Below, piece by piece: positions 4,713 to 25,181 of a stretch of DNA of 30,534 nucleotides. The position numbers and the translations under genes are program-made. Source of the stretch: a virus; IMG/VR virus record IMGVR_UViG_3300027782_002492, positions 1 through 30,534 of that record; one strand, 5' to 3'. The notes beneath the pieces were generated by a model. The model made no database searches. It saw only the letters and a program-made list of their open reading frames with translations, and was not told the origin of the DNA. The first letter of the stretch is position 1, and the number at the start of each line of letters is the position of its first letter.

Positions 4713-4720
4713 AGACACAT

Positions 4721-4749: not shown

Positions 4750-4752
4750 GTT

Positions 4753-5414: not shown

Positions 5415-5423
5415 ATTTTTTCC

Positions 5424-5945: not shown

Positions 5946-5946
5946 A

Positions 5947-6567: not shown

Positions 6568-6575
6568 GTCATTCC

Positions 6576-6764: not shown

Positions 6765-7123
6765 CTTGCCTCCCATGCGGATTTGGTTGCATCAATTCTC
6801 ATTAATGACGTTTTCTTACCTAACTCACAAAAGGTTTTGCTTCCACCTTTACTCATACGAACGTAATGACTGTATAAACCCTTAATATTTTCGTGTTGAG
6901 GGTCTTTTCTCCATTCTGTATATTTCTCAAGTTGTTCAGAAACCTTAGTAACTTGAGACCAGTCTGGTTTTTCGCAGTCTATATTTTGCGTATCTATATT
7001 TAGTGTTACCAATTTGTCAAACATTACTGGATCATGGTCTCTTGGCCAATATTTTTTAACTTGGTCAATAGTGGAACAGCCTGAAAGTGCAAAAAATGCA
7101 CATATTACTAATAGTTTTTTCAT
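6761..7123 (-). CDS. Lipoprotein of the lysis cassette, unknown function
   Basis: 120 aa with a clear lipoprotein signal: MKKLLVICAFFALSGC, lipobox LSGC with the lipidated cysteine at residue 16. The mature protein has two further cysteines (NIDCEKPDW and TFCELG) and a central charged helical region (VSEQLEKYTEWRKD), plus HYVRMSKGG. It overlaps the upstream spanin-like lipoprotein by 4 nt (ATGA), and the downstream 62-aa gene by 4 nt. It is too long for a typical Rz1-type o-spanin and I recognise no family, but its position implies action at the outer membrane at lysis. Confidence 0.8.
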   Translation of the reverse strand: MKKLLVICAFFALSGCSTIDQVKKYWPRDHDPVMFDKLVTLNIDTQNIDCEKPDWSQVTKVSEQLEKYTEWRKDPQHENIKGLYSHYVRMSKGGSKTFCELGKKTSLMRIDATKSAWEAR

Positions 7124-7380
7124 TTTACACTTTCATATATTTGTTTTTGTATGCCATACCATTCAATCCAAGCATCCAGTTTTATCGAACACTCATGGTA
7201 TAAAGTATAATTTGAGGTTACTGTCTTAGCAATCTCGCTTAATTTTGTGTCATCACTCAGTTTGGCCAAAGATGGACACTTTTGCAGTAGTTCGTTTGGT
7301 GCCTGTGGAAATTTTGGTGTAACTGGAACTGTGGTGCAACCAGTTACACATAATACTAGGCAAGCAATCAGTAATTTCAT
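7120..7380 (-). CDS. Candidate outer-membrane spanin (Rz1-like lipoprotein)
   Basis: 86 aa lipoprotein: signal MKLLIACLVLCVTGC with lipobox VTGC, lipidated C15, then a proline-containing segment (TTVPVTPKFPQAP) and a helical C-terminal part with NYTLYHECSIKLDAWIEWY. Short, Pro-containing lipoproteins next to a membrane/coiled-coil gene are typical o-spanins, which join inner and outer membranes in the last step of Gram-negative lysis. The start overlaps the upstream membrane protein stop by 4 nt rather than being nested inside it as in lambda Rz/Rz1. The role is a prediction from architecture and context. Confidence 0.75.
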   Translation of the reverse strand: MKLLIACLVLCVTGCTTVPVTPKFPQAPNELLQKCPSLAKLSDDTKLSEIAKTVTSNYTLYHECSIKLDAWIEWYGIQKQIYESVK

Positions 7381-7838
7381 TTTGACTGCTCCGTTGCATC
7401 ATTCAATGCTTTGATAAATTCTTTTGGAATTTCACATTGACCACCAGGTAAAAACTTTGTGTCGTACTTGGTTACTTCTCTATCAACATATTTTACAATA
7501 TCTTGGCCACGTTCTCTGACCAATTCAGTCTTTGTAACTACTTTCGTTACTATCTTAACATTTTCTTCTTTTGATTTTTCTTCTGCTGCAGCAACCTTTT
7601 GTTCCATCTCAGCAACTCTTGCACGCCATGATAATTCGTTCTGTAGACCGCCTTCAAAATAAAGACCAAATAAAAACAGCATGATACCTACAATTTTAAT
7701 TAAAAAACCATAAGGTGCAATAGGAGGAATTTTAGATGTAAAAAGACCTATTACTGAAATTACTATTCCAGAAACAAAAACAGCATGAACAAATAATGTT
7801 AATGCTGTTGGCGAGATTGCTGACAAAAACCACATCAT
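7377..7838 (-). CDS. Membrane protein with coiled-coil region, candidate inner-membrane spanin
   Basis: 153 aa. Two hydrophobic segments at about residues 10-33 (TALTLFVHAVFVSGIVISVIG) and 44-62 (YGFLIKIVGIMLFLFGLYFEGG, read as one helix) are followed by a long charged coiled coil (about 70-125, ending VKYVDREVTKYDTKF) and a soluble tail with one Cys. This anchor-plus-coiled-coil layout and coupling to the o-spanin-like lipoprotein (overlap 7377-7380) suggest the i-spanin partner. Classical Rz proteins have a single anchor, so a two-helix membrane protein is a deviation. Two consecutive ATGs (7838 and 7835) are possible starts; no strong Shine-Dalgarno sequence, so it is probably coupled to the small gene upstream. 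Confidence 0.7.
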   Translation of the reverse strand: MMWFLSAISPTALTLFVHAVFVSGIVISVIGLFTSKIPPIAPYGFLIKIVGIMLFLFGLYFEGGLQNELSWRARVAEMEQKVAAAEEKSKEENVKIVTKVVTKTELVRERGQDIVKYVDREVTKYDTKFLPGGQCEIPKEFIKALNDATEQSK

Positions 7839-8023
7839 GCTAAGTTTGGCGGATTACGATTGAAAGTGCTAAAAGGCATTACTTGTTTCTTGTTCTTCTT
7901 TGAGACACCTGGCTCGCCTGATTTGCCAACACCAATGCCAGCAATGTTACCATCACCTGCATTGTTTACTGGTGCACCACCGACTAAACCAACACCATCT
8001 TCTTTTAATTTTTCTTTTTTCAT
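7835..8023 (-). CDS. Small glycine-rich conserved phage protein, unknown function
   Basis: 62 aa. The N-terminus is basic (MKKEKLKED), the middle is glycine-rich and probably disordered (GLVGGAPVNNAGDGNIAG and GVGKSGEPGVSKK), and the C-terminus is basic with MPFSTFNRNPP. Small proteins of this composition, with PVNNAG and GEPGV-type segments, occur in aquatic T4-like phages, and I know no function. It is probably translated: the start follows the DUF7207-like stop by 6 nt, the stop overlaps the next ATG, and no other frame explains the space. The ribosome site is weak. Confidence 0.65.
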   Translation of the reverse strand: MKKEKLKEDGVGLVGGAPVNNAGDGNIAGIGVGKSGEPGVSKKNKKQVMPFSTFNRNPPNLA

Positions 8024-8029
8024 AGTTGT

Positions 8030-8422
8030 CTACTTTATTTTTCTCAACGCATCTGCAATAACTACATCGATGTTAATATCCGAAGACCTTATGTCGTGAC
8101 CTTTAATACCATACACCACATCAGGCATACAACTCAAAAACAAAAGATAAGTCTTCAGAGAAGGATAATCATCTTTTGATAATTTGAAAAACAATATTCT
8201 AGATGCAACTTCGGGACCAAAAACGTTATAGAGAACAATTAGATGGTTTAAAACTAATTGTTCTCTAAGTTCACCAATTTTTCGGTATCGCTTAAACAAA
8301 CGATTCAAATAAACAAATCGTTTCATGTCTTCTTTAAACTCACTCATTACCATATTGGGCTTATCATAAGCCTTAATGGCATACATCATAATATTTTCGC
8401 TATTCAAATTATCAAAATTCAT
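8030..8422 (-). CDS. Conserved T4-like phage protein (DUF7207-like)
   Basis: 130 aa, all-helical by composition. It matches a hypothetical family frequent in marine T4-like phages, with an N-terminal NSENIMMYAIKAYDKP segment, a basic middle (FVYLNRLFKRYRKIGELREQL), the conserved LNHLIVLYNVFGPE, then LKTYLLFLSCMPD and a C-terminal INIDVVIADALRKI. No enzymatic motif or membrane segment. The DNA encoding residues 52-64 or so contains a perfect 14-bp inverted repeat (8230-8268). It is two bases downstream of the 123-aa gene and is probably co-transcribed with the virion gene at 8796-9143. Function unknown. Confidence 0.85.
   Translation of the reverse strand: MNFDNLNSENIMMYAIKAYDKPNMVMSEFKEDMKRFVYLNRLFKRYRKIGELREQLVLNHLIVLYNVFGPEVASRILFFKLSKDDYPSLKTYLLFLSCMPDVVYGIKGHDIRSSDINIDVVIADALRKIK
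8230..8268. repeat. Perfect 14-bp inverted repeat (stem-loop) inside a coding gene
   Basis: TAGAGAACAATTAG (8230-8243) is followed by an 11-nt loop and its exact reverse complement CTAATTGTTCTCTA (8255-8268). Neither arm is followed by a T-run, and the structure lies inside the 130-aa gene, so it is not an ordinary terminator. It could form a stable RNA hairpin in the message or be a palindromic binding site. Confidence 0.85.
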
Positions 8423-8424: not shown

Positions 8425-8796
8425 TTAATCTTCGGTGTCGTCTTCCTCGTCCCCTAAGATTTCTTCTAAACCTTCTTCATCAGTTAATTCAGCATAAAAA
8501 TCATAGCGACCGTCATCAGTTGGACTATAAATGATATAGAGATATACATCATCGTTAATAGGTAATGCCATTTCATCACCTTCAGGATCAAGACCGTAAA
8601 GCGCTGGCATTTCTACACCATAACGCATCAACACTTTACGTAGTCTTTGGACGCCAGATTCTGGTGTCATCAATATGTCATCCAACTCTACATCAAGACT
8701 GTTATTGATTGAGTCTATTACGCTCGCATCAATAGAAGCCGACCCTAGAGCCGGCATCTCACATTCACACTCTTGTAGATATTGTTTAAAATTCAT
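8425..8796 (-). CDS. Acidic conserved phage protein with capsid-targeting-like N-terminus
   Basis: 123 aa, very acidic C-terminus (EEILGDEEDDTED). It matches a hypothetical family I recall from cyanophage-type genomes, with VIDSINNSLDVELDD, the conserved TPESGVQRLRKVLMRYGVEMPALY and LDPEGDE, and YLYIIYSPTDDGRYDFYAEL. Function unknown. The N-terminus MNFKQYLQE resembles the T4 capsid-targeting sequence, with a potential prohead-protease cut after E9 (L-Q-E), so it may be a head-internal protein; that is inference. The start overlaps the stop of the virion protein gene by one base (TAATG). Confidence 0.82.
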   Translation of the reverse strand: MNFKQYLQECECEMPALGSASIDASVIDSINNSLDVELDDILMTPESGVQRLRKVLMRYGVEMPALYGLDPEGDEMALPINDDVYLYIIYSPTDDGRYDFYAELTDEEGLEEILGDEEDDTED

Positions 8797-9173: not shown

Positions 9174-10319
9174 TTATTTATCTTCTTTAACTATCTCACT
9201 AGACAAAATTGGATCAGCTTCGAACTTATCCTTTGTCTTGGCTGCTTTTTCTTTAGCAGATTTAGAAGCATCCTTAATGATTTCTGCTTTGCGTGATTCT
9301 TTTAAAGGTTGCTTTTTTGCATCGTTATCAAACTGTTTTCTTGTTGCTTTAACGATACCACTAAAACGTTTATTACCTTTAGCGTAGTCACCCGCTTTGT
9401 CAGCCTTACTAGCGTCTGCGCCAGCAGCCTTTTTATAACGACCCAAAGTATCGTTGGACAATTCATCGATTTGTTCAACTTCTTCTTTAGCCATTTTTCT
9501 TCTTGCCATTACTGCGGCAATTTTAGCACGCTTTGCAGCGGCTTCTTTATCATGTGGTTTATCAGAAGGTTTAACATCTTTCTCATATGCATCACTTTCA
9601 TTCATGTGACCATATTTTTTCTTGTACCAATCAGGCATTCCGTTCTTTTGACGGAAATATCTAACAGTTGCAGAATCATTGGCCTGGTCACGATACTTGT
9701 TTTCAGCAGTAGTATTATGTGACTTCATTGCTTCAGCAGCCTTATGTGCATCTTTAGCAATATACTCTAATTCAGCATTAGTCTTCTTGTGATACTCATG
9801 GCCTTCTAAAGGATGACGTTGAGAAGGACGACCTTCAGTCAATTCAACTTCTTCTTTCATCTCGGAGTACATGTAGTCAGCTGCTGTTTGAATATAATCA
9901 GTAGCAAGAGTAATCTTAGATTGAACCCACTCAGGCATATCTGTATCAGGCTTCAACATGTCTTTAATCATTTCAGCGCAACGTGTTAATGTTGCTAATT
10001 GATTTAAGGCCATGTCGCCTTCATAACCATATTCTGATTCGTCTTTAGCTTCAGAAACTGGTACACAATTAGGAACTTTTTTACCGTTCTTATCTTTCAT
10101 ACCAACCATTTCGTAGCCAGTCCAACAAGGGTCTTCACCCTTCATTTTCTTTTCTTCTTGCATAGAACGCTTCTTCACATGAGCAAGTTGTTGAGCAAAC
10201 TCTTGGGAAGAAACGGCACCATGTTCTTCATCATCAGTAGAAGTAGCAGGACCTTTATCGTGCTTTGGGTCCAGTTTAGCAAATCTGATGGATTTGAAAA
10301 CGTCTGATACTTTTTTCAT
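9174..10319 (-). CDS. Lys/Glu-rich probable prohead-core or head-internal protein (381 aa)
   Basis: Hydrophilic protein, rich in Lys, Glu, Ala and Asp, with no membrane segment or enzymatic motif. Segments of a type common in aquatic T4-like genomes include DPCWTGYEMVGMKDKNGKK followed by VPNCVPVSEA (two Cys), a helical region at about 105-150 (ATLTRCAEMIKDMLKP and following), and EEVEQIDELSNDTLGRYKKAA with the recurrent IDELS-x-x-TL-x-x-Y module. It contains several L/I-x-E sites (ELTE, QIDE, PLKE) that would fit cleavage by a gp21-type prohead protease. The start overlaps the previous stop by one base. A scaffold or internal head protein is my best inference; composition alone cannot prove it. 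Confidence 0.7.
   Translation of the reverse strand: MKKVSDVFKSIRFAKLDPKHDKGPATSTDDEEHGAVSSQEFAQQLAHVKKRSMQEEKKMKGEDPCWTGYEMVGMKDKNGKKVPNCVPVSEAKDESEYGYEGDMALNQLATLTRCAEMIKDMLKPDTDMPEWVQSKITLATDYIQTAADYMYSEMKEEVELTEGRPSQRHPLEGHEYHKKTNAELEYIAKDAHKAAEAMKSHNTTAENKYRDQANDSATVRYFRQKNGMPDWYKKKYGHMNESDAYEKDVKPSDKPHDKEAAAKRAKIAAVMARRKMAKEEVEQIDELSNDTLGRYKKAAGADASKADKAGDYAKGNKRFSGIVKATRKQFDNDAKKQPLKESRKAEIIKDASKSAKEKAAKTKDKFEADPILSSEIVKEDK
9175..9182 (-). promoter_or_regulatory. Late-promoter-like octamer GATAAATA
   Basis: One mismatch to the T4-type late -10 element TATAAATA. It lies 31 nt before the ATG at 9143, leaving a leader of about 25 nt that holds an AGGAG ribosome site, as expected for a late gene. 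It overlaps the last codons of the upstream gene (GAT AAA TAA), so the match could be coincidence. Confidence 0.45.
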
Positions 10320-11938
10320 TACATGTTATCCAATGCTGTTTGGTGACCATCTAACGCACCTTTATGCCAGTCGGCGTGTTCTGTAGTACCCTTTTTATGT
10401 GGATTATCTGCCAACATTTCTTTTTTTCTTGCACGAGCAGTTACTTTAAAACCAGAATCCTGTGCATGGTCTGAAGCATATTCATGGCCTGCTTTGTAAT
10501 GTTCAGATTCAGTTTCCTCTTTCATAGCTTGCTTGGTTGCAGTTGCATACATTACAGACTTAGCATCTTTACCATAACGCTCTTTGAAACCTTGTAGGTT
10601 CTTCTTCATCGACTTAACGTTCTTCTCACGTTTTGCCATTTCAGCATCAGTCATCTCACGTTCGTCTAATTCAATAGTGGACATTTGTACACCATTAACA
10701 TCGTTCAAATCGATAACTTCTACTGTTGTATGTGTTTCTTCTTGTTGAACAGCTTGAACTGAAGGTTTAGCAACATCAGCACCTTTTTTCTTACCATCAA
10801 ACTTGGCCTTTTGGTCTGCAACTTCTTTTGCATAGGTGTCATTATCAACTTCTTCGTTCATGTGAATCTGAGATGCTTTTTTGGCAGCTGCCATTTTGGT
10901 TTTTTCCACGCCAGTTTTATAGTGTTTACTAGTTTCGCTACCGTCCCAATTTTTACCGCCGGAATGATATTGCCAACCTGATTCGTGCTTGGTAACATCA
11001 GCAACGTGTTCACCTGATGGTGAATGTATGCGGCCTTTATCGGTATGTTTCATTTTGATTTTGTAACCATTTCCAATATCAGATTCATTCAAATCTTCAA
11101 CTTCTTCGTTCATGTGAGCTTGTACTGCCTTTTTTGCAGCTGCTGCTTTTGTTTTTTCTACGCCGGTTTTGTAGTGTTTACTTGTTTCTAGGCCGTCCCA
11201 GTTTTTGTTACCAGAGTGGTATCTCCAACCTTCGCCGTGTTCTCTTGTTACAGTAGCTACATGTTCGCCCGATGGAGAATGTATGCGGCCCTTATCAATG
11301 TGTTTCATTCTGATTTTATAACCATTTTCAATATCTGATTCATTTAAATCTTCAACTTCTTCTCTTTTGATACCAGCAGCAGTTAGTGCATCAGCTCTAT
11401 CTTTATATGATTTAATATCAGGAGCAGCCTTTTTAATCGCATCTTTAACTTGTTGAGGAGCATCACTCTTTTCAACATGCTTCATTGTTGTTTTGCCTGC
11501 ATGACTCATTGCTTCTGCAAGACCTTTTAGACCTTTTTCTTGAAGCGCATCAAACATTGATGAGAAGCCTTCATTCACACGAGTTGAACGCTTGAAGTTT
11601 TGACGAGCACCATACTTACCACGAGCAGGTTTTTTTGGTTTGTCAGCAGCTTTTGCTAATTCATTTTCTTTTGCATAGTCAGTATCGCCGTGTTCAGCGC
11701 CTTTGCCTGCATAACCGTAAGTACCTTTGTGAGTATAAGAACCATTTTTTGATTCATACTCTTTTAGTTGCTCAGTTTCTTCCTTCTTCATAGCACGAAG
11801 TTTGGCAAAATCTTTGCCATCAATTTTTTCATCGTCAACAACATCAAGTTTTTGTTGGTTTGGATGGAGTTTCTCAGACATAATGTTTGCAACTATGTCT
11901 GCTACGCTTCTTGTGGTTTTATTATCGAAATTTGACAT
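10319..11938 (-). CDS. Probable head-internal protein with two 85-residue tandem repeats (539 aa)
   Basis: Charged, Lys/Glu/His-rich protein without membrane segments. Residues about 190-360 hold two tandem repeats of 85 and 84 residues, each starting EEVEDLNESDI, then NGYKI-MKH-DKGRIHSPSGEHVA, a W-YHSG-KNWDG-ETSKHYKTGVEKTK segment and ending in an Ala/Lys-rich stretch with HMN. The repeat looks like a small folded beta-rich module. A third EEVD start follows immediately and then diverges. L-x-E sites (DLNE before each repeat, DALQE, KGLAE) could be cut by a prohead protease, releasing the modules. GGAG lies upstream of the ATG at 11938. It is coupled to the 381-aa gene, with which it shares composition. 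Function unknown; a head-internal or core role is inference. Confidence 0.7.
   Translation of the reverse strand: MSNFDNKTTRSVADIVANIMSEKLHPNQQKLDVVDDEKIDGKDFAKLRAMKKEETEQLKEYESKNGSYTHKGTYGYAGKGAEHGDTDYAKENELAKAADKPKKPARGKYGARQNFKRSTRVNEGFSSMFDALQEKGLKGLAEAMSHAGKTTMKHVEKSDAPQQVKDAIKKAAPDIKSYKDRADALTAAGIKREEVEDLNESDIENGYKIRMKHIDKGRIHSPSGEHVATVTREHGEGWRYHSGNKNWDGLETSKHYKTGVEKTKAAAAKKAVQAHMNEEVEDLNESDIGNGYKIKMKHTDKGRIHSPSGEHVADVTKHESGWQYHSGGKNWDGSETSKHYKTGVEKTKMAAAKKASQIHMNEEVDNDTYAKEVADQKAKFDGKKKGADVAKPSVQAVQQEETHTTVEVIDLNDVNGVQMSTIELDEREMTDAEMAKREKNVKSMKKNLQGFKERYGKDAKSVMYATATKQAMKEETESEHYKAGHEYASDHAQDSGFKVTARARKKEMLADNPHKKGTTEHADWHKGALDGHQTALDNM
10856..11362 (-). repeat. Two tandem coding repeats (255 and 252 bp)
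   Basis: Copy 1 spans 11362-11108 and copy 2 spans 11107-10856 on the minus strand. The DNA copies have diverged (many third-position changes) while the protein stays similar, showing the duplication is old and under selection. A third GAAGAAGTT start at 10855 marks the end of copy 2. Confidence 0.9.
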
Positions 11939-11960: not shown

Positions 11961-12380
11961 TTAACAATTCCATTTACGCAAGGCTAATGCTTTACGTGAT
12001 GGTTCACCATTTGGTTTTTTCATTGGACCTTCCATGCCACCCATACGAGCACAGAATGATTTTCTACGATTTGCTGCCTTAGAACCAGGCTTTAATTTAG
12101 AAGGCGGTGTTGTAACTGCCATTGAAAGTTTAGAACCTGGATTCTCTGCACGATATGAAGCAATACCTTTGCGATTTAGACCGCCTTCAGGATTTTTTCC
12201 TTCTTTACGGCGCCATGCAGCTGTCTCATACAGTTCAACATCATCAACCGATTCAAAATCTTCCCAAATCGTTTCTGCATCTACACCGTGTTCTTCGGCT
12301 AATTCTTGCACCATTTCTTCAATCATATCAAACTGTTCATCCAAAGACAAAGAGGTAATATAAGTTTTAAATGTTTTCAT
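11961..12380 (-). CDS. DUF6321-like conserved phage protein
   Basis: 139 aa. The acidic N-terminal third (FDMIEEMVQELAEEHGVDAE and following) is helical. The C-terminal part matches the DUF6321 pattern I know from T4-like phages: ETAAWRRKEGKNPEGGLNRKG, IASYRAENPGSKLSMAV, KAANRRKSFCARMGGM and a final KALALRKWNC. The many Arg, Lys and conserved Cys/Trp suggest nucleic-acid binding, but no function is known to me. The N-terminus MKTFKTYITS starts like the T4 capsid-targeting sequence (MKTYQEFIAE) but lacks Glu at the cut site; L-D-E at 13-15 is the first possible site. The ATG overlaps the stop of the 749-aa gene (TATGA). Confidence 0.85.
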   Translation of the reverse strand: MKTFKTYITSLSLDEQFDMIEEMVQELAEEHGVDAETIWEDFESVDDVELYETAAWRRKEGKNPEGGLNRKGIASYRAENPGSKLSMAVTTPPSKLKPGSKAANRRKSFCARMGGMEGPMKKPNGEPSRKALALRKWNC

Positions 12381-14626
12381 AGTACGTTTTTACTTTTAAA
12401 GGTAGAAAGGTTGATACCTTTCTTTTTTAGTTCATCTTCTTTTTGAGCACCGATTGAAGCACCAGTTTCATCACCTTGCATTTCTGATACAGGAGTTACT
12501 TTAGAATCTTTTTTTCTAATCTTTTCGCCCATGTCACGACCAAGAGATTCACCAGCGCCAGCCATCGATAGACCAGACTCTATGCCTTTGTCGATGGATT
12601 CCTTGACGGTTTTCTCTTTTTGGCGGGAACGGAGTTCTTCGAAACCGGTTTTGCGGATGTTTGGTTGGAGGGTTTGGGCTGCAAGGGTTTGTTTGTCTTG
12701 GTGACCGGTGAAGGTGTCGGTTCGACTATCGGCAGGCTCGGTGCCTTCTCTAATGGTTCCGGTATCTTTTCTACCACCGGTTCTGGCCCTAATTGAACTA
12801 ACGGTAATTGTTCTACCGATGTTTCCACTGGTGCAACTGCTGTCTGTTCTGGCTTCTTGAATAGGTTCTTGATAAATTGTAACATCATTTTTCTCCTCAT
12901 GTAATTTAACTATGTAACCACCGTGTTTTTTGTCGGTGTTCTGTTGAACGGTTCCACCTTTTAAGTGGGCTTCTTTTGCAGCGCTTCTACGCAACATAAA
13001 AACTCTAATTTTACCATTCTCCGATTTCAGATAATTTGTCTTTTCATTCTCTGAAAGCATTTCTTCAAACTCCTCATTTACTTTATTAGGAGTTTCTTTT
13101 GGTATATTTGTTGGCAACTTTTCAACTGCAACAAGCTTATCGTGTACAACTCGGTATGTTACTTTACCTTTTTGTCCATATCGGCCAAAACCATAATACT
13201 GTAGGCCTAATCGGCGTGCTTCTTCTGTTGCACCAGATTCTGGATGTGGTGCAATTGAAGATTCGCCTTTTGGAATTGGTTGTGTGTCTTTCTTATCCAA
13301 TTCAGAAGCAACCCATTGTTTTGCTTCATCATTCTTTGGAGGTGCCTTAACAAACTTCTGTATCTTTTTGTACAGGTCAAGGAATTCTTTTTCTTTGGCT
13401 GCACGAACTTCAGGTGCAGCTGCACGTAAATCTTCTGAGTTATCTATTTCAGAATAGTTATCACCAAACATCTTAGCAAGTTCAGGTCGTGCGTTTTGAA
13501 CTGACTGCCATTTTTCTTTACGAATGTCTTCTGGTACAGAACGGCCACCACGTTGACCACGTTCTACGTTACGTGATGCCGATACCTCATCACGGGTATT
13601 AACCATAATCATTGAAGACTCATAACCAAGTTCTTCTAAGCGGTCTTTAATCTTTTTAATCTTTGCATGGTCATCACCAGTACCATTGATGATAATACCA
13701 TTTCGACCAAGTAGAGCCAACTTTTGTCTCAACTCAGTCATAGACTTTGCTTTGGTGCGAGCAACTTCTCTAGCACCTTTTTGTGACTGCGGCATTCTTT
13801 TGTCTAGATTTCTTTTGTCCATCAAGTACTCAAGAGCCTTGTCAGAGTTAATCTCGGTTAGACCATGGCCTGCAAGTGTTTTGTCAAGCACATAGTCTTT
13901 ACCAGAACCTGGTCCGCCGCCCATAAAGACTGCTTTGAAGATGGACTTATCGTGAACACCTTCAGTAAGAAATTCTGAGAATTCTTCAAAGTGTTCGTCA
14001 ATCGATTCTTTAACACCACCGATATACTTGTCTAACATACGTTTGACTTTATCGGCACTAGATGCTTGTGGGTATAGAGATTTTACGATTACTCTGCGGC
14101 CTGCATCATCAGCCTTTTGGTACATATCACGTACTTGGCTACCTGAGTATACTTCTTTCTGACCAATTTTGAAGATTTTCTTTTTAGTTACAAAGATATA
14201 ACCGTGACCGCCTTTAGGATTAAAAGAGACACAATCTTTAAGAGATTTGAATGGTTGATAGTAAGCAGGTGAACCATCTTTCTTAGTATAGTTCACAGGG
14301 TCACGCTCTGAGCGTACCAGAATAAGAACATCTTTTTCTGGATTGTATTTGTTTAATATTTCTTGGGGATTAACTGGTTGAACAACTTGTACAAAGTGGT
14401 CAACAACGCCGGCCTGTTGTGCTAGAAATCTTTTATCTGCAAAGGGAATTGGACGGTTCTTTGTGTCGTTAGAAGCTGCAACATAGAAGTCAGCACTAGG
14501 GAAAGCACGCTTGGCTTGTTCGTATGAACTCATGTGACCGGCGTGAAATGGCTGGAATCCTCCGCCATAAACGACAATAACTTTACGTGGTTCTGCCTTC
14601 TCTGACAGAAATTCTTTAAATCTCAT
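12377..14626 (-). CDS. Nucleotidyltransferase-kinase fusion, probable head-processed polyprotein (749 aa)
   Basis: Residues 10-200 form a HIGH-family nucleotidyltransferase: GGGFQPFHAGH at 21-31 binds the nucleotide, and YSGSQVRDMY at 160-169 corresponds to the ISSTxIR-type motif; related aquatic-phage proteins are called cytidylyl- or NMN adenylyltransferases. Residues 228-430 are a P-loop kinase or zeta-toxin-like domain with Walker A GGGPGSGK at 236-243. Residues 527-749 are of unknown function, ending in MQGDETGASIGAQKEDELKKK. Three near-identical segments, MRFKEFLSE (1-9), EEFSEFLTE (214-222) and EEFEEMLSE (518-526), sit in front of the three domains and resemble capsid-targeting and prohead-protease sites. 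Substrates are not determinable from sequence. A late-promoter octamer lies 86 nt upstream, and another gene is nested in the +1 frame at 12580-12885. Confidence 0.85.
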   Translation of the reverse strand: MRFKEFLSEKAEPRKVIVVYGGGFQPFHAGHMSSYEQAKRAFPSADFYVAASNDTKNRPIPFADKRFLAQQAGVVDHFVQVVQPVNPQEILNKYNPEKDVLILVRSERDPVNYTKKDGSPAYYQPFKSLKDCVSFNPKGGHGYIFVTKKKIFKIGQKEVYSGSQVRDMYQKADDAGRRVIVKSLYPQASSADKVKRMLDKYIGGVKESIDEHFEEFSEFLTEGVHDKSIFKAVFMGGGPGSGKDYVLDKTLAGHGLTEINSDKALEYLMDKRNLDKRMPQSQKGAREVARTKAKSMTELRQKLALLGRNGIIINGTGDDHAKIKKIKDRLEELGYESSMIMVNTRDEVSASRNVERGQRGGRSVPEDIRKEKWQSVQNARPELAKMFGDNYSEIDNSEDLRAAAPEVRAAKEKEFLDLYKKIQKFVKAPPKNDEAKQWVASELDKKDTQPIPKGESSIAPHPESGATEEARRLGLQYYGFGRYGQKGKVTYRVVHDKLVAVEKLPTNIPKETPNKVNEEFEEMLSENEKTNYLKSENGKIRVFMLRRSAAKEAHLKGGTVQQNTDKKHGGYIVKLHEEKNDVTIYQEPIQEARTDSSCTSGNIGRTITVSSIRARTGGRKDTGTIREGTEPADSRTDTFTGHQDKQTLAAQTLQPNIRKTGFEELRSRQKEKTVKESIDKGIESGLSMAGAGESLGRDMGEKIRKKDSKVTPVSEMQGDETGASIGAQKEDELKKKGINLSTFKSKNVL
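12580..12885 (-). CDS. Nested proline-rich basic protein, overprinted in the +1 frame of the 749-aa gene
   Basis: 101 aa from the ATG at 12885 (a second ATG lies directly before it at 12888). AGGAG at 12897-12893 is 7 nt from the ATG at 12885, one of the best ribosome sites in the window, although it lies inside another gene. The protein begins with an amphipathic, basic helix (MLQFIKNLFKK), continues with a long Pro/Val/Glu-rich linker (VVEKIPEPLEKAPSLP and similar), and ends in a basic Lys/Arg/Pro/Ser tail (PAKKRKPSRNPSTKA). That ordered design is unlike random off-frame translation, whereas the host frame here is Ser/Thr/Arg-rich low complexity, as expected when constrained by a second frame. 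Function unknown; membrane- or DNA-associated linker proteins have such composition. Confidence 0.6.
   Translation of the reverse strand: MLQFIKNLFKKPEQTAVAPVETSVEQLPLVQLGPEPVVEKIPEPLEKAPSLPIVEPTPSPVTKTNKPLQPKPSNQTSAKPVSKNSVPAKKRKPSRNPSTKA
13049..13075 (-). other. Capsid-targeting-like peptide, internal (EEFEEMLSE), before the C-terminal region
   Basis: Encodes residues 518-526. It separates the kinase part from the C-terminal region. Predicted cut after E526 (L-S-E). Confidence 0.45.
13961..13987 (-). other. Capsid-targeting-like peptide, internal (EEFSEFLTE), before the kinase domain
   Basis: Encodes residues 214-222. It separates the nucleotidyltransferase domain from the P-loop domain, whose Walker A motif begins 14 residues later. 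Predicted cut after E222 (L-T-E). Confidence 0.5.
14600..14626 (-). other. Capsid-targeting-like peptide, N-terminal (MRFKEFLSE)
   Basis: Encodes residues 1-9 of the fusion protein. Aligns without gaps to the end of the T4 targeting peptide (YQEFIAE against FKEFLSE), with L-S-E at the predicted prohead-protease cut after E9. Confidence 0.6.
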
Positions 14627-14653
14627 TTACCCGCCTCTGCAGCAGTTATACTA

Positions 14654-15745
14654 TTATAAGTGTTTTTTTACCGTAGCCATGGCCGAACCGATGACTTGGT
14701 GCATATCGTAGTATTTATACTCCGTTAATCTTCCACCAAAGATTACGTTCTCTAAAGCATCTGCTTTTTCTCGATACTTCTTATATATGGCCGTGTTCTT
14801 CTCATCATTTATAGGATAGTAAGGTACTTTTGTTTTATCCCATTCCGCAGGCATTTCTTTGGTAATGATAGTGAAGTCGGTCTTTGCCTTAGTAAAGTGT
14901 TTATGTTCTACTATACGAGTCCATGGCACACTGGCGTCGGGATAGTTAATCATAGCACTACCTTGTGCGTTATCAGTCTCCAATCGTTCATGGATGAAGT
15001 CCAAAGTACGATACTCTAACTCACCAAACTCATAATTAAAGTACTCATCAATCTTGCCTGTGAACACAATCTTATCGGCAAGTTGGTCCCACAAATCTTT
15101 ATGTTTGAAATAATCGGCATCTACTCTTACGTCTATGCCTTCAAGCATACGTTCAAATAACTTGCCATAACCATCCTCAGGAATGCCTTGATGTTTATCA
15201 TCAAAGTAATTGTTATCGTATGTAAAACGTAGAGGTAAACGCTTAATGATAAATGCAGGCAACTCTTTAGGGTCTTTCTGCCATTGTTTCTCAGTATAGC
15301 CTTTAATCAAGGTTTCGTATATGTCACGGCCAACCAATGAGAGAGCTTGTTCTTCTAAGTTGGTTGGTTCACCAGTAAAACGTTGAGAGTTTATAACTTC
15401 TTTGGCCTGGTCAGGTGTTGTTACACCCCACATTTCATAAAACGTATTCATATTAAATGGTAACGAATACATTCTACCTTTGGTTGTGGACTTTGGTTCA
15501 AGCCTGAAGTTGTTAAACTTGGAAAATTTATTTACAAATTCCCAAATGCGGTCATCATTCGTGTGGAAGATATGAGGCCCATACAAATGAACATCGATGC
15601 CATCCACATTTTGTGAGTAAGCATTCCCACCAATGTGAGAACGATTATCAATGACTAAACATTTTTTGCCTGCATCAGTAGCAAGTCTAGCGAAAGTGGC
15701 ACCAAAGAAACCAGCACCAACTATTACGAAATCATATGGTTTCAT
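14654..15745 (-). CDS. glf: UDP-galactopyranose mutase
   Basis: Flavoenzyme that interconverts UDP-galactopyranose and UDP-galactofuranose, the donor for galactofuranose in surface glycans. The 363-aa length is normal for bacterial Glf. The N-terminal dinucleotide site is GAGFFG (G10, G12, G15), then NRSHIGGNAYS, GIDVHLYGPHIFHT, RMYSLPFNMNTF, and GYTEKQW with LPLRFTYDNNYFDD (substrate-cleft residues), and near the end FGGRLTEYKYYDMHQVIG-type sequence binding FAD. The ATG overlaps the preceding stop (ATGA), placing it last in the sugar island. A late-promoter octamer for the next gene is embedded near its 3' end. Confidence 0.96.
   Translation of the reverse strand: MKPYDFVIVGAGFFGATFARLATDAGKKCLVIDNRSHIGGNAYSQNVDGIDVHLYGPHIFHTNDDRIWEFVNKFSKFNNFRLEPKSTTKGRMYSLPFNMNTFYEMWGVTTPDQAKEVINSQRFTGEPTNLEEQALSLVGRDIYETLIKGYTEKQWQKDPKELPAFIIKRLPLRFTYDNNYFDDKHQGIPEDGYGKLFERMLEGIDVRVDADYFKHKDLWDQLADKIVFTGKIDEYFNYEFGELEYRTLDFIHERLETDNAQGSAMINYPDASVPWTRIVEHKHFTKAKTDFTIITKEMPAEWDKTKVPYYPINDEKNTAIYKKYREKADALENVIFGGRLTEYKYYDMHQVIGSAMATVKKHL
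14712..14719 (-). promoter_or_regulatory. T4-type late promoter element TATAAATA
   Basis: Perfect match to the T4 late -10 element, and the only perfect one I found in the window. It lies 86 nt upstream of the ATG of the nucleotidyltransferase-kinase gene, inside the glf 3' end, and would drive the head-internal protein block as a late unit. It also encodes part of EYKYYD in glf, so chance cannot be excluded. Confidence 0.5.
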
Positions 15746-16536
15746 TCTTTACGGATACTTTGGTTATATTCCCAAACTGTTGAGAACAAACGGTCATCAA
15801 TATCGTTTTCTTTGAGTGTGTTAATCAAAGCGTTAATGTCTTTAGGGAAACAGTAACCGCCAAAACCCATCTGACCATCAGGACCTGGAACTTTAGTGTG
15901 TGAACCACCAATACGTGTATCCGAACAAACACCATCTTTAACAGAATCAAAATTCATTCCAAGTTTCTGACAGATTTGGAATAGGTTGTTAAAGAAAGCA
16001 ACCTTAGAAGCTAAGAATGAATTACAAAAATACTTAATCGTTTCAGATTCATTAGAAGAAACAATCTGAATAGGAGTATATGGAAAATATTGAGTGTAAA
16101 AATCTTTTAACTTGAAACAATATTCTTGATTGCCGCCAATGATGTTGCGGTCAGAATTGCGGAAGTCTTCAACAGCATTTACTGCGGTCAAAAATTCTGG
16201 ATTATGTACAATATTAAATGGATATTTACGAGACAATTTCTCAGTAGTACCGATTGGCACAGTTGATTTAATCACAAACAATGGGTCTTTTTTAAACGTT
16301 CTAGACCGTGCTTCAATGTCCATAAAGAAAGCATTGACAAAAGACAAATCACATTCACCATTTGATTGCATTGGTGTAGGAAGACAAATGAAAATAATGT
16401 CAGAACCTAACACTTCTTCTAATTCATTTAGTCGTTTCTCGACTTTAACGTCATACACCTTTGTAAGGACTTTGTCCTTAAAGTTTTGGTAAATTGCATT
16501 ACCAACAAAACCATTACCAATAACACCAACTTGCAT
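15742..16536 (-). CDS. UDP-sugar (UDP-glucose/GDP-mannose-type) dehydrogenase-like protein, short form
   Basis: 264 aa. An N-terminal Rossmann domain has GNGFVG (G7-G12), then IIFICLPTPM, FVIKSTVPIGTTE and HNPEFLTAVNAVEDF, and the central domain ends in GFGGYCFPKD with the catalytic C229. These are hallmarks of nucleotide-sugar 6-dehydrogenases, which oxidise the sugar to a uronate. The C-terminal UDP-binding domain of the usual 390-450 aa enzymes is missing: only 35 residues follow the catalytic loop, and the gene ends cleanly at the glf start. It may work as a short variant or act on a different substrate. I chose the ATG at 16536, with GGAG 6 nt upstream. Confidence 0.88.
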   Translation of the reverse strand: MQVGVIGNGFVGNAIYQNFKDKVLTKVYDVKVEKRLNELEEVLGSDIIFICLPTPMQSNGECDLSFVNAFFMDIEARSRTFKKDPLFVIKSTVPIGTTEKLSRKYPFNIVHNPEFLTAVNAVEDFRNSDRNIIGGNQEYCFKLKDFYTQYFPYTPIQIVSSNESETIKYFCNSFLASKVAFFNNLFQICQKLGMNFDSVKDGVCSDTRIGGSHTKVPGPDGQMGFGGYCFPKDINALINTLKENDIDDRLFSTVWEYNQSIRKE

Positions 16537-16537
16537 A

Positions 16538-17350
16538 TTAAACTCCATTCATAATTTTACTATACAGGGATTTAAAGTTATCCCCATCCATCTTATCAAA
16601 CATGTGTACAAAAGGTATGTAGTCGTACAACTCTATGTTCTGGCCGCCTTCTGTTTGTAACTTAGAAGGTATCACCATATCAGGTGTGTAGTTAAATGTC
16701 ATAACTGGCACTTCATCAAATGGAACTGGATTCATATTGAAGTATGAGTGTGCGATAGCAAAGATAATTTCATCTACACGACCACCTCTAAAAGCACGGC
16801 GGCATTTATATTCATCATATCTATAGAACACCACTTTACAGTAATTAAAGAACTGTTCTAGGAAAGAATTCTTTCTCAGATAAAAGAAACCACCATGAAC
16901 ATGAGGTACGTGTTTACCATATGCTTTCGAAACTTCTTCGATAGCACCCCAATGCCAGTTAGGATCATTCTTACGACCTAACATTCTAATTGGAAATGGT
17001 TGTTTTGACATATAATCCCAAAGAGCTTCTGGATTATACTGACAAAGAACATCAGAATCAACAATTATGTTTTCTTCATAAGGTAAATATTTTTCAAAAT
17101 TGATTCTAGGATAAAGACAATACTTCTCAAAACCTGTGTCACAGAAAGTCCACAAATCATCACGAGGATTGAATTCTATTAGTTTGTCAAACACACCCAT
17201 AGCCTCAGCATATTCACGGTCTTGTTCGTGAATTAGTAAACTCATAGGCCTATTACAACCAGACTTACGAATAGTTTCGAGTAGTAGATATGACTCTAAT
17301 ATGTATTGTTTACCAAGACCTATTAGAAAATAACCTTGATTTAACGCCAT
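16538..17350 (-). CDS. Glycosyltransferase (GT-A fold, GT8-like)
   Basis: 270 aa. Opens with a GT-A-type strand and helix (YFLIGLGKQYILESYLLLETIRKSG), then a DxD-like metal site NIIVDSDVLCQYNP at about residues 93-106, followed by HVHGGFFYLRKNSFLEQF, FRGGRVDEIIFAIAH and FNYTPDM, consistent with a retaining hexosyltransferase. The donor and acceptor cannot be predicted. The ATG at 17350 overlaps the methyltransferase stop by 10 nt. It belongs to the sugar island and may use a nucleotide sugar produced by the neighbouring epimerase, dehydrogenase and mutase. Confidence 0.82.
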   Translation of the reverse strand: MALNQGYFLIGLGKQYILESYLLLETIRKSGCNRPMSLLIHEQDREYAEAMGVFDKLIEFNPRDDLWTFCDTGFEKYCLYPRINFEKYLPYEENIIVDSDVLCQYNPEALWDYMSKQPFPIRMLGRKNDPNWHWGAIEEVSKAYGKHVPHVHGGFFYLRKNSFLEQFFNYCKVVFYRYDEYKCRRAFRGGRVDEIIFAIAHSYFNMNPVPFDEVPVMTFNYTPDMVIPSKLQTEGGQNIELYDYIPFVHMFDKMDGDNFKSLYSKIMNGV

Positions 17351-17934
17351 GCTTCTGATACCAAATTAGGATATTTTTTCAACTTTTCAAGCAATGCTGC
17401 TTCACGAATTTCAATTTCTTCACGGTTTTTAAAGAATCGAGCATGCCATTCTACAGAAATATGGTTAATATATTCCATAGTTCCGTCAGCAATCATTTTC
17501 TCTAATGTATCAAACTCAGAGCCTTCAATGTCCATTTTGACAATGATGTTGTCTTCTGGTTGAAATGATTCTTTGATGAATGAAGAAAAGTCGAAACATG
17601 TTACTTCACGCTGTAACTTAAACTGGTCATTAGCTTGCATACCCCATGGATCCCATTTGTCCAACGGAATCACGGAAGAACCCATGCCTGTGTCGTCTTC
17701 GCCAGGTGGTGTTTCAATATTAACTGTGATAGTACCATTGTGGTCACTAACAGCTGCATTGAAGGCACGAACGCCTGGAGTTAGATGGCCATATTCTTTA
17801 ATGAACTTTTCAAAGGTAACAGGATTTGCTTCGAACGTATAAATTTCCCAAGTTTGGTCCATATTAAATCGTTCAATGAATTCCCTCATACCTTGGCCGT
17901 AATGAGTACCTAAATCTAAAAATACATTTTTCAT
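17341..17934 (-). CDS. FkbM-family SAM-dependent methyltransferase
   Basis: 197 aa from the ATG at 17934, which follows the upstream stop by one base with GGAA upstream. Motif I is VFLDLGTHYGQG (SAM site), with an acidic second strand IYTFEANPVTFEKF, and the FkbM hallmark NIIVKMDIEGSEFDTLEKM at about residues 140-160. FkbM enzymes O-methylate sugars or polyketides; within a glycan gene group it probably caps or modifies a sugar. Length is normal for the family. Confidence 0.9.
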   Translation of the reverse strand: MKNVFLDLGTHYGQGMREFIERFNMDQTWEIYTFEANPVTFEKFIKEYGHLTPGVRAFNAAVSDHNGTITVNIETPPGEDDTGMGSSVIPLDKWDPWGMQANDQFKLQREVTCFDFSSFIKESFQPEDNIIVKMDIEGSEFDTLEKMIADGTMEYINHISVEWHARFFKNREEIEIREAALLEKLKKYPNLVSEAWR

Positions 17935-17935
17935 A

Positions 17936-18508
17936 TTATTTCCAAGCAATTAAAATACGGCTATCTGCAGCCGCAGTTGATGAATCGTCTATAGTTTTTA
18001 CTTTTGTTCCCGTTGGTAACACATCAGTAATTGAATTAAACCAAGCGGCATTAGGAATATCTTCAATCACTAATATACCACCAGGATTAAGTTTTGGATA
18101 ATACAACTTAGCACACATTAACATAGATTCTAAATTGTGGGGGCCATCATCATTCACAATGTCAAATGTACCTAGTGAGTCAGCAAACTCTTTAGTGTAA
18201 GCATCTGCAATGATGATTCGTGTTCTATTTGGGTCAACACGACCTTGAATATTTTCTAAAGATTTTCTAGGTTCAATATCAACTACAGTAATATCACCTT
18301 GAGGAAAATACTTATCCCAAGCAATTGTAGAGGCACCATGATAAGCACCAATCTCCAACAATTTTACAGGTTTATCTCGCCATTGTTCAAACAATGGATC
18401 ATAGTCTTTAGTGTATGGATGCTTAGTAAGTTTATCTGTTCCCCAGCCTTTAGCTTCATCAAGGAACAAACCTTCCTCTTCCATAATCTCATGGAGAGAT
18501 TTATACAT
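17936..18508 (-). CDS. Class I SAM-dependent methyltransferase (macrocin O-methyltransferase-like)
   Basis: 190 aa. KLLEIGAYHGASTIAWDKYFP at about residues 48-68 is motif I, ITVVDIEP is the acidic ribose-binding strand, TFDIVNDDGPHNLESM carries the metal-site-like Asp pair and His, and GGILVIEDIP is motif III. These features recall sugar O-methyltransferases of the TylF/MycE type. Start at the ATG overlapping the epimerase stop region. With the FkbM protein it gives two methyltransferases in the same glycan island. Confidence 0.85.
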   Translation of the reverse strand: MYKSLHEIMEEEGLFLDEAKGWGTDKLTKHPYTKDYDPLFEQWRDKPVKLLEIGAYHGASTIAWDKYFPQGDITVVDIEPRKSLENIQGRVDPNRTRIIIADAYTKEFADSLGTFDIVNDDGPHNLESMLMCAKLYYPKLNPGGILVIEDIPNAAWFNSITDVLPTGTKVKTIDDSSTAAADSRILIAWK

Positions 18509-19413
18509 TATAGGTTATCTTTCACATAGTCTTCAATACGTTTTTTAGGTGACCAACCGAAAGTGGTATTAATTTTAGTGTTATTAGCTAGTGTGATATA
18601 TGCTTCACCTAGTCGTGGTGGAACAAATTTAATATTATCTGAAATCATTTGAGCAAGTTCAAGCACGGAATGATTTGTTCCTGTGCCAACGTTATAAACT
18701 TTTCCGTAAGTGTCATCAGCTGATACTTGTTCATGTTGCATAGCAAGAATGTTTGCTTCAACAACATCATCAACGTGTGTGAAGTCTCGGCGTTGAGTAC
18801 CATCACCAACGATGGTTAATGGTTGGTCAAATCTTTTTTGGCGCAAGAACAGACCAACAACTGGTGCATAAGGACCTTTTAGTGGTTCTCTTGGACCATA
18901 TACGTTGAAGTAACGGAAGATTACTGTATCAAGACCAAATAGGTCGGTGTACATCTTACACAGTTTCTCACCAGATACCTTTGAAACAGAATATGGATTC
19001 AAGCAATCATCAGACATTTCTTCGGAAAGTGGAGGTTCATTCTTTAAACCATAACCAGATGACGTAGAAGAATACATAACACGTTTTACTTTTGCTTCAC
19101 GAGCACATTGAAGTACTGTTGCTGTGCCGAGTGTATTTGTCCTAACTGCTAACAAAGGATTTTCGATTGCTGGTTGAATACGAGATTCGGCCGCACAATG
19201 GAAAACATAATCAGCGCCATCGTAAATTGGTCGAGTATCTCCATAGTTTGCTATGTCTAAAATAAAATATGTTGCTTTAGGATTAAAATAAAAGTGGTCG
19301 TGTACCTCTGACGATTCATTGTCAATAACAACAACTTTATGACCCATTTCCACCAAACGATCCACAATATGGGAACCAATAAAACCGCTGCCACCTGTTA
19401 CAATAATTTTCAT
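18508..19413 (-). CDS. NAD-dependent nucleotide-sugar epimerase/dehydratase (extended SDR)
   Basis: 301 aa. N-terminal NAD site GGSGFIG (G7, G10, G13), VIDNESSE acidic turn, catalytic tyrosine/lysine pair Y141-S-V-S-K145 preceded by a Ser/Thr-rich VMYSSTSSGYG strand, RYFNVYGPRE and RDFTHVDDVVEA, all typical of GalE- or WbpP-like UDP-sugar 4-epimerases. The exact sugar is uncertain. I chose the ATG at 19413 because GAGG is 7 nt upstream and the Rossmann strand starts at once; the longer open frame overlaps the upstream gene. It would supply UDP-galactose or a related sugar to the mutase at 14654-15745. Confidence 0.92.
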   Translation of the reverse strand: MKIIVTGGSGFIGSHIVDRLVEMGHKVVVIDNESSEVHDHFYFNPKATYFILDIANYGDTRPIYDGADYVFHCAAESRIQPAIENPLLAVRTNTLGTATVLQCAREAKVKRVMYSSTSSGYGLKNEPPLSEEMSDDCLNPYSVSKVSGEKLCKMYTDLFGLDTVIFRYFNVYGPREPLKGPYAPVVGLFLRQKRFDQPLTIVGDGTQRRDFTHVDDVVEANILAMQHEQVSADDTYGKVYNVGTGTNHSVLELAQMISDNIKFVPPRLGEAYITLANNTKINTTFGWSPKKRIEDYVKDNL

Positions 19414-19415
19414 AT

Positions 19416-21022: not shown

Positions 21023-21382
21023 TCAATACTTACTCTTTATATATTGTCTAAACTTTTTAAAGTCCTGACCCGGAGTGTCTTTCATATAAGACTGAACCAA
21101 TGTGGAAGTACCATCTTGGCCTGCGCCAGCCTTTGGTAGAATATCTGGCTTAACTTCTTCATGTACACTCTTATGTAGTTTAACACCAGTAACGTCTTGC
21201 ACCATTTTCCAGGCATCTTTATGACGCTTGTTCTTTACGTGGTCATCAAACTTCTTTTTCTGTTCGTCATTGGCTTTCTGTTTGAACTTAATCAACTCCA
21301 TAATGCCTATGTTACCAGCGTATGCAGCTTCGGTCAACTGCTTTCTGGTTTCACGAACCTTCTTTATTGCATTAATGCTCAT
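21023..21382 (-). CDS. Small conserved phage protein with possible head-protease site
   Basis: 119 aa, basic and helical. A pattern I recall from aquatic T4-like phages is present: AAYAGNIGIMELIKF, a Lys-rich region with KHVKNKRHKDAWKMVQ-type sequence (here VKNKRHKDAWKMVQDVTGV), and a C-terminal GQDFKKFRQYIKSKY. R-K-Q-L-T-E18 precedes AAYAGN, so it too could be cut after L-T-E by a prohead protease. AGAGG is 5 nt from the ATG. Function unknown. Confidence 0.8.
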   Translation of the reverse strand: MSINAIKKVRETRKQLTEAAYAGNIGIMELIKFKQKANDEQKKKFDDHVKNKRHKDAWKMVQDVTGVKLHKSVHEEVKPDILPKAGAGQDGTSTLVQSYMKDTPGQDFKKFRQYIKSKY

Positions 21383-21383: not shown

Positions 21384-21665
21384 TTAACCTCTGGTTAGAT
21401 TTAAAATCTTTTGAATTTGTGCTTCTAAAATAGGCTTACGATTTGGCCATTTGATAACTGGTTGTTCTGCGGTCTTCAAAAGGTTTGTTAAGAAAGGCAT
21501 AATAATCTTTTCTACTTGTTGCAAGCGAACTTTATATTCCTCTACAGTTTCATCTTTCTCAGCAATAATCGCATTATATTCTTCTTCATCTACTGCGGTA
21601 AAACCAAAATCATCATCGCCATATTCGGCCATAATTTTACTAATGTCATATTTTATATCAGCCAT
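21384..21665 (-). CDS. Small conserved T4-like phage protein, unknown function
   Basis: 93 aa, acidic N-terminus (YGDDDFGFTAVDEEEYNA) followed by a helical part (EEYKVRLQQVEKIIMPFLTN) and a conserved ending VIKWPNRKPILEAQI plus ILNLTRG. The combination IMPFL, IKWPNR and LTRG recurs in aquatic T4-like genomes. No enzyme motif. Its ATG overlaps the ligase-like stop by one base (TAATG), with GGAG 6 nt upstream, so it is translated with that gene. Function unknown. Confidence 0.82.
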   Translation of the reverse strand: MADIKYDISKIMAEYGDDDFGFTAVDEEEYNAIIAEKDETVEEYKVRLQQVEKIIMPFLTNLLKTAEQPVIKWPNRKPILEAQIQKILNLTRG

Positions 21666-22897
21666 TATTTACTCCAGTTCTTGGCAGCGTTAAAGTTTTG
21701 ATGAGCGAATTCTAAACGGTCAATTAACTTCAAAGCACCGCCTGAAAGTTTATCTACACAAACAAATCCCTCAGGACCCGTTACTTTGAAACCATCATCT
21801 GTACGAACAAATGTATCTACTGAAGACTTGATTGTTTCCAACTTACGGACAATCATAACTTTAGCATCAACAATATCATTCATCAAATCAAAAATTAATT
21901 TTAATTGACCTGCATTACCACGGAAGAAACGCATAACTTCAGTCTTTTCACCAATACGTTTCTTCTTTGTGTCTTCTTTCTTGGCAGCCAAGATTTCTTT
22001 ATTCAAACGGTCTTCAATCCAACGAATCAATTGTACTGTATGTTGTTGAGTGTCTTTAATGTGTTCGCCTGCACGGACTTTGGTATTGTTAAAAGTCTTA
22101 ATGTACAAGTTAAATGTTTCGTTAGTAGAAATTCTATTCAACACGGCAGGATTAATTGATTGGAATATTTTGCCAGCAGTTGAAAGAATATCTGTTAGTT
22201 CTCTTGTTTCTTTATCAGTAAATGTTGCGGTGCCTGAAGCATCTACAAACGAAGCATCACGGAACCAAACATCTTTAGTTTGCGTAAAATTACCAACATC
22301 TATATTGAATGATGCACGTAATGAGTCCATCGATTTACCATTATATGTGGTGTGAAATACAATACCCATCTGAGCAGCCATCATCTTTTTGGCCATTACT
22401 GAATCGGAAGGCACAGCATAAACAATAGTGTTTGGTTGAAAGGTGATGTATGATTGTCCATCAATAGTCTTGCTATCAAGGTCACCTTTACTAAACATCA
22501 TGTCGCCTTGAATGATACCTTTGATTCCAAGTTTTGGTAAGAAAGCCAATGCGACTTTCAACTTATCATTCAGACCAGGATTTGGATGGTTCTTATCAAT
22601 ATCATCATTTGTATAATTCAGTTTACCTTCTTTATTGAAGACTGATTTAGTACCAACAAAGAACTTCCCATTATCTGGATTGGTACCACAGATAATGGCA
22701 GGTGCACCATCCCACTTTGTGGTAATGTTGGTTTTATTTGAAGAATGGCCGGCCAACATATCACGCAAAGAACGTAGAAAGTTAATAGAGTCTCTAGCGC
22801 CATTAACACCATTATTCAGGACATTGTCCTCAAGGTGTTCTAGGTGAAGATTAGCACCTTCTTTGGATGCTTCTGATAAAAATTGTGTGAAGTTCAT
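21665..22897 (-). CDS. DUF6267-like protein with nucleotidyltransferase/ligase motifs and capsid-targeting-like N-terminus
   Basis: 410 aa from the ATG at 22897 (one base after the previous stop). I recognise the family pattern (HLEHLEDNVLNNGVNGARD, then TKWDGAPAIICGTN), usually annotated as unknown. Sequence inspection shows an order like that of ATP-dependent RNA/DNA ligases: K61-W-D-G (motif I, K-x-D-G, covalent lysine), GTKS with K84 about 23 residues later (Ia-like), IIQGD at 129-132 (motif III-like), PEGFV with E376 (motif IV) and ALKLIDR with K390 (motif V). The distance between motifs III and IV is long, implying an insertion. The N-terminus MNFTQFLSE matches the capsid-targeting-like motif, predicting a cut after E9. 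Ligase activity is inference. Confidence 0.78.
   Translation of the reverse strand: MNFTQFLSEASKEGANLHLEHLEDNVLNNGVNGARDSINFLRSLRDMLAGHSSNKTNITTKWDGAPAIICGTNPDNGKFFVGTKSVFNKEGKLNYTNDDIDKNHPNPGLNDKLKVALAFLPKLGIKGIIQGDMMFSKGDLDSKTIDGQSYITFQPNTIVYAVPSDSVMAKKMMAAQMGIVFHTTYNGKSMDSLRASFNIDVGNFTQTKDVWFRDASFVDASGTATFTDKETRELTDILSTAGKIFQSINPAVLNRISTNETFNLYIKTFNNTKVRAGEHIKDTQQHTVQLIRWIEDRLNKEILAAKKEDTKKKRIGEKTEVMRFFRGNAGQLKLIFDLMNDIVDAKVMIVRKLETIKSSVDTFVRTDDGFKVTGPEGFVCVDKLSGGALKLIDRLEFAHQNFNAAKNWSK
22871..22897 (-). other. Capsid-targeting-like peptide (MNFTQFLSE) on the ligase-like protein
   Basis: Encodes residues 1-9. Same F-x-[E/Q]-F-L-S-E core as the fusion protein at 14600-14626, in a protein with no other resemblance to it; predicted cut after E9. 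Confidence 0.55.
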
Positions 22898-25180: not shown

Positions 25181-25181
25181 T

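Follow-up and report, generated by a model that had tools for sequence, protein, structure and literature searches.

A nucleotidyltransferase-kinase fusion from a virus contig is a putative capsid-targeted precursor with predicted head-protease sites at its domain boundaries

Results

We analyzed a gene of a marine T4-like phage in the IMG/VR virus record IMGVR_UViG_3300027782_002492, of which the whole stretch studied (positions 1 to 30,534; 30,534 nucleotides) is called the window here. The gene encodes a fusion of a nucleotidyltransferase and a zeta-like P-loop kinase, and three similar segments lie at the boundaries of its parts. The best reading of this arrangement, which we consider probable, is that of a capsid-targeted precursor that is cut by a head protease. 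That the protein is such a capsid-targeted precursor has good support; cutting of the chain, the release of its enzymes as separate proteins, their injection and their substrates are what we infer. The gene and its parts are as follows.

12377..14626, minus strand: fusion open reading frame, 749 amino acids; tag, nucleotidyltransferase, zeta-like P-loop kinase and C-terminal region
14600..14626, minus strand: segment 1, MRFKEFLSE (residues 1-9); predicted capsid-targeting tag and first predicted cut site, after E9
14306..14572, minus strand: nucleotidyltransferase domain (residues 19-107; Pfam CTP_transf_like, PF01467, E=4e-7)
14006..14008, minus strand: E207 (GVKE/SIDE; a slash marks a known or predicted cut), a possible extra cut site at the start of a linker
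13961..13987, minus strand: segment 2, EEFSEFLTE (residues 214-222); predicted cut site between E222 and G223
13487..13936, minus strand: Zeta/AAA_33-type P-loop kinase domain (residues 231-380; PF06414, Zeta_toxin, E=6e-14)
13049..13075, minus strand: segment 3, EEFEEMLSE (residues 518-526); weaker predicted cut site between E526 and N527
12380..13048, minus strand: C-terminal region (residues 527-749), mostly disordered

The plus strand across 12377-14626 is full of stops. The nucleotidyltransferase fold reaches residue ~204, beyond its Pfam bounds; it carries HxGH at residues 28-31, and in a search of PDB profiles PPAT and NadR came up as weak matches. The Walker A motif of the kinase (GPGSGK, residues 238-243) is located downstream of segment 2, and the C-terminal region contains further [LIV]xE triplets at E676 and E715. 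A Pfam scan of the fusion protein found no peptidase family, and PADLOC returned no match.

In an AlphaFold model of the fusion the mean predicted local distance difference test score (pLDDT) is 62, and the confident domains are set apart by stretches below 50. Such values occur at residues 9-11, 205-227 and 504-528, and it is these low-confidence linkers that hold the segments. Short helices are predicted at residues 3-11, 213-217 and 517-524, and disorder extends over the long stretches 578-661 and 674-726. A fold search with the full-length model returned generic P-loop kinases and ATP sulfurylase; given the low confidence of the model (predicted template modelling score 0.36), it was not used to assign a function.

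The three segments are conserved at the domain boundaries

The initial annotation had placed the segments at residues 1-9, 214-222 and 518-526, and they match these positions of the minus-strand frame exactly. Three matches to the motif [FY]xx[FYM][LI]xE were obtained in only 1 of 200,000 shuffles of the fusion protein (5e-6). In whole proteomes of ~165-kb relatives the motif is seen 8-16 times versus 4-5.4 expected, i.e. ~2-3.5 fold over shuffled sequences; because this excess is so small a lone internal match means little, and the weight is carried by position and conservation. The strict motif was also considered as a stand-alone predictor and was rejected: about 4-5 matches per genome arise by chance, and it is present in ordinary glycosyltransferase and methyltransferase genes of the window.

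A scan of the IMG/VR viral contigs confirmed 96 relatives, 80 of which were kept. Segment counts were taken from a 44-row alignment and the pattern of conserved columns from an alignment of 65 related proteins. [LIVM]xE is present at segment 1 in 37 of 40 relatives, at segment 2 in all 44, and at segment 3 in 28 of 39, with F at P3 in 10 more. F at P7 and P4 and E at P1 are nearly invariant in segment 1; in segment 2 the P2 position takes 14 residues, while E at P1 and L, I or V at P3 are kept in 44/44. The conserved columns of the 65 proteins are E at P1, L/I at P3 and F or another hydrophobic residue at P4 and P7, with P2 free. Among all alignment columns in which E reaches at least 85%, only those of residues 9, 222 and 526 are preceded by mostly hydrophobic P3 and P4 positions; the E207 column (E in 96%, LIVM at P3 in 94%) has G at P4. 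The core columns carry more information than the flanking linker, with 3.17 versus 2.17 bits for segment 2 and 3.25 versus 1.77 for segment 3. In the comparison proposed by the initial annotation, homologues do retain the segments at the domain boundaries, and segments 2 and 3 more strongly than the adjoining linkers. To judge from the alignments, the conserved columns appear to be the positions that a gp21-type protease would read, with segment 3 apparently a weaker site than segments 1 and 2.

The segments resemble the cut sites of T4 head proteins

The proposed similarity to the T4 internal-head-protein tag MKTYQEFIAE was confirmed, in that one pattern is common to the segments, to T4 IPII and IPIII, which begin MKTYQEFIAE/A, and to the cut site of T4 gp23, AFGSFLTE/AEIGG. 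T4 IPI and Alt have ITE. The cut positions in these T4 proteins are well established. Capsid targeting by the T4 tag goes back to Mullaney and Black (1996), as cited in PMC5694885.

A search of the 30.5-kb window for gp21 gave nothing, because the window is a fragment; the protease and candidate gp23 sites, which had been suggested as a check, were found in relatives. The gp21 protease (PF03420) is encoded in 8 of 10 of them, the two without it being partial records, and gp23 of six relatives has [LI]xE near residue 50-55, followed by A in five and by T in one.

The late-promoter-like sequence NATAAATA occurs at most 120 bp upstream of the gene in 31 of 63 relatives versus a background of 1.1%. 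Its presence there is as expected for late, virion-related genes. A leader of ~16 nucleotides, CTGCTGTAGAGGCGGA (14627-14645, minus strand), stands directly before the start codon of the fusion and is conserved in most relatives. In the window and in 4 of 6 near-complete relatives its core precedes the fusion gene and no other gene start; the leader may be a translational operator.

Similar enzymes in virions of cultured phages

Mass spectrometry of purified S-CREM2 virions detected the cytidylyltransferase gp154 with 3 unique peptides, and the sequence of this protein begins MKNFSSFLTE/ADEK. The virion proteins of S-CREM2 also include gp136 (MQTFSMFFSE/D) and the mosaic proteins gp137 and gp160. 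In S-SCSM1 the nicotinamide mononucleotide adenylyltransferase (NMNAT) gp281, which begins MKSFLQFLKE/AAES, was flagged as a virion protein together with its neighbours. Among the S-CREM2 reading frames of the 98-142 kb stretch, the strict tag occurs in 2 of 20 virion-detected and in 1 of 27 undetected proteins, numbers too few to be taken as enrichment. The nucleotidyltransferases of the jumbo phages K64-1, XbC2, Cassandra and SCTP-2 and of cyanophage P-HM1 are without the tag; it is therefore not part of the enzyme fold, yet also not universal.

The statement of the initial annotation that no described phage was known to deliver a nucleotidyltransferase and a kinase this way needs correction as regards the nucleotidyltransferase, since virion carriage of NMNAT-like enzymes had already been reported for S-SCSM1 and S-CREM2 and, as cited in those reports, for S-CBWM1 and S-SZBM1. 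The accessible text of the published accounts of cyanophage virion nucleotidyltransferases does not mention a tag.

The domains also occur in separate genes

The usual architecture in relatives is nucleotidyltransferase, kinase and C-terminal region, and several relatives start at the kinase. Their nucleotidyltransferases are of two diverged types. Extra modules are inserted after segment 3, which makes this segment a module insertion point. In Pelagibacter phage HTVC008M the kinase (MIPFILKE/GLYD) and a nucleotidyltransferase (MKTLKELLRKK) are separate adjacent genes in swapped order, and in Melnitz a separate kinase gene starts MKTFAELQE/GVYD; the stand-alone kinases of these two cultured phages thus begin at segment 2.

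In Agrobacterium phage Atu_ph07 the kinase is found in gp53 (778 amino acids), where Pfam named only the kinase; the first part of the protein resembles an ADP-ribosyltransferase by eye only. This protein and several later ones (e.g. gp55-gp61) begin with M[KR]WxQL[TN]E or near it. The region gp53-gp63 is a run of apparent ADP-ribosyltransferase paralogs, judged by eye, many of which have a near-identical N-terminus of this kind. In this phage 29 proteins of coding sequences 31-76 were detected in virions, a figure for the region as a whole. The same kinase family also occurs in cyanophage PSS2 (3762-8261 of its locus) inside a protein annotated as a minor head protein, which is consistent with the fusions of zeta-like kinases to MuF head proteins reported in PMC5512222.

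Neighbouring proteins share the layout

Proteins with similar N-termini or junctions are encoded around the fusion gene.

11961..12380, minus strand: DUF6321 protein, the next gene (PF19846, E=6e-22); its module begins ELYE/TAAWRRKEGK
10319..11938, minus strand: mosaic module protein, 539 amino acids, with shifted alignments
9174..10319, minus strand: mosaic module protein, 381 amino acids, with PVSE/AKDESEYGYEGD and VELTE/GRPSQRHP
8425..8796, minus strand: small protein with tag-like N-terminus MNFKQYLQE
21023..21382, minus strand: stand-alone module QLTE/AAYAGNIG, found inside longer fusions in relatives
21665..22894, minus strand: DUF6267 protein with tag-like N-terminus MNFTQFLSE/A (PF19782, E=6e-114)

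In six near-complete relatives the strict tag stands at the N-terminus of 2-4 proteins per genome versus ~0.1 expected; among the tagged proteins of relatives, which frequently lie near one another, are the fusion, DUF6267, DUF6321 and a HAD-like protein. Short modules (AAYxGNIG, DLRKWF, GRPSQRHPLEGHEYHKK, AKDxxEYxYEGDMA and DUF6321, the last mobile in relatives) recur at different places, and modules near the fusion gene occur both as stand-alone genes and within longer proteins. Where cluster alignments are shifted, homology starts at [LIVM]xE with the same offset in 39 of 88 cases, which are not independent of one another, versus 5% at positions inside those alignments; elsewhere the value is 4% of 448 shifted alignments. 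This suggests from the protein sequences that the layout of tag and cut site is wider than the fusion gene, with neighbouring proteins built alike. A literature search for the tag in cyanophages, for DUF6321 and for DUF6267 found nothing.

Other genes of the window

Between the DUF6267 gene and the fusion is an island of genes for UDP-galactopyranose mutase, a UDP-glucose dehydrogenase-like protein, an FkbM methyltransferase, an epimerase and a glycosyltransferase-like protein (14654-20234, minus strand). A protein with a match to the DruA (Druantia) domain (24062-25201, minus strand; PF14236, E=1e-9) is encoded near replication genes, and a row of thioredoxin, Fe-S cluster carrier (PF01521), ribonucleotide reductase and ThyX genes occupies 575-3679 on the minus strand.

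Discussion

In our proposal segment 1 would do what the capsid-targeting sequence does in T4 and draw the chain into the prohead core. There, segments 1 and 2 would be cleaved by a gp21-type prohead protease, each behind the glutamate of its [LI]xE triplet; cleavage of segment 3 is probable as well, and E207, E676 and E715 are further possible sites. The head would then hold a free nucleotidyltransferase of ~22-24 kDa, a free zeta-like kinase of ~34 kDa and pieces of the C-terminal region, which would be ejected with the DNA into the host. The single precursor envisaged by the initial annotation is thus retained as regards packaging, with the tag match, the conservation at boundaries, the position in linkers, gp21 in relatives and the related, equally tagged nucleotidyltransferases of published virion proteomes in its favour; its cleavage and injection we infer.

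Several observations weigh against this proposal. The window, a fragment of 30.5 kb, contains no head genes, cleavage products have so far not been seen, and the kinase was not found in accessible published virion proteomes. The nucleotidyltransferase of the window is only ~20% identical to the virion-detected, commoner type, and the authors of the S-CREM2 and S-SCSM1 studies warn that enzymes of this kind may be contaminants carried along in purification. At the sites themselves, about one relative in four has F at P3 of segment 3, and P1' of segment 1 is Q or K in most relatives, unlike the A of the T4 internal proteins. In addition, the 88 shifted alignments are not independent, and BLAST start points are approximate.

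It is rather unlikely that the protein is packaged and then left uncut internally, segment 1 being a tag and segments 2 and 3 fusion leftovers or extra core-binding helices, so that an intact multi-domain effector would be injected, as proposed for polyvalent proteins. The virion RNA polymerase of N4 is a case of packaging without processing, and the coincidence of segment 2 with the start of stand-alone kinases would be explained by fusion alone. However, a relic would not show constant P1 and P3 residues around a freely varying P2; moreover, the sites lie in low-confidence linkers, and the chain would share its compartment with active gp21.

An ordinary bifunctional cytoplasmic enzyme, such as one for NadR-like NAD salvage (adenylyltransferase and kinase), in which the linker helices are alike by chance or for domain contacts, seems quite improbable to us. 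Although both kinds of domain are present in NadR, which gave weak matches by profile and fold search, the kinase matches Zeta_toxin/AAA_33, which leaves the NadR assignment unsupported for this domain, and a NadR model was touched only by the nucleotidyltransferase part of a relative, far below the cut-off. Furthermore, the domains are split and swapped in order in HTVC008M, kinase-only versions and versions with a different nucleotidyltransferase exist, and tagged nucleotidyltransferases occur in virions. It is very improbable that the segments serve only as a generic linker of amphipathic type or as a docking helix for a non-capsid complex, unrelated to the head: the short predicted helices would suit it, but the motif is also that of the T4 gp23 cut site and internal-protein tags, and it is common to unrelated proteins of the same cluster.

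We regard the proposed capsid-targeted precursor as a variant on a theme known from T4 internal head proteins and from polyvalent proteins, and not as a category of its own. As in T4 IPI, IPII, IPIII and Alt, a short N-terminal tag of the same pattern with a putative [LI]xE site is present and a gp21 protease is encoded, here in relatives; T4 Alt is an injected enzyme. Each T4 protein has one N-terminal propeptide, whereas the fusion repeats similar sites at domain boundaries. Polyvalent proteins hold several unlike enzyme domains per chain, and for them packaging in the virion and injection have been predicted (Iyer et al. 2017, PMC5512222). The fusion also joins disparate domains, a nucleotidyltransferase and a zeta-like kinase, but while the processing of polyvalent proteins is ascribed mainly to embedded peptidase domains, common though not universal, no such domain was found in the fusion and its sites fit a head-maturation protease. 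The virion nucleotidyltransferases of S-CREM2 and S-SCSM1 are HIGH-type enzymes with an F-x-x-F-L-x-E N-terminus like that of the fusion; they differ in being stand-alone genes without a kinase. In SPN3US and phiKZ-like phages many injected head proteins are cut during maturation (PMC5694885, PMC10052503); the cuts are of the AxE type and remove N-terminal propeptides, and the accessible text of these papers does not describe release domain by domain.

A wider proposition, which we would hold with no more conviction than its opposite, is that marine T4-superfamily phages maintain a stock of small cargo modules, each behind a head-protease site, which are exchanged between stand-alone genes and long precursors; the protease of capsid maturation would then also process polyproteins and deliver several separate proteins per gene into the host. 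Phage records matched numbered 532 in the nucleotidyltransferase search, 530 for DUF6321 and 469 for DUF6267. Cyanophage virion proteomes repeatedly show enzymes that were found puzzling or were ascribed to contamination, and a packaging tag and cut-site rule common to them would account for their presence. Such a rule would also make cargo predictable from nothing but sequence in many T4-like marine phages, and it would offer a simple route by which a single gene fills phage heads with several proteins.
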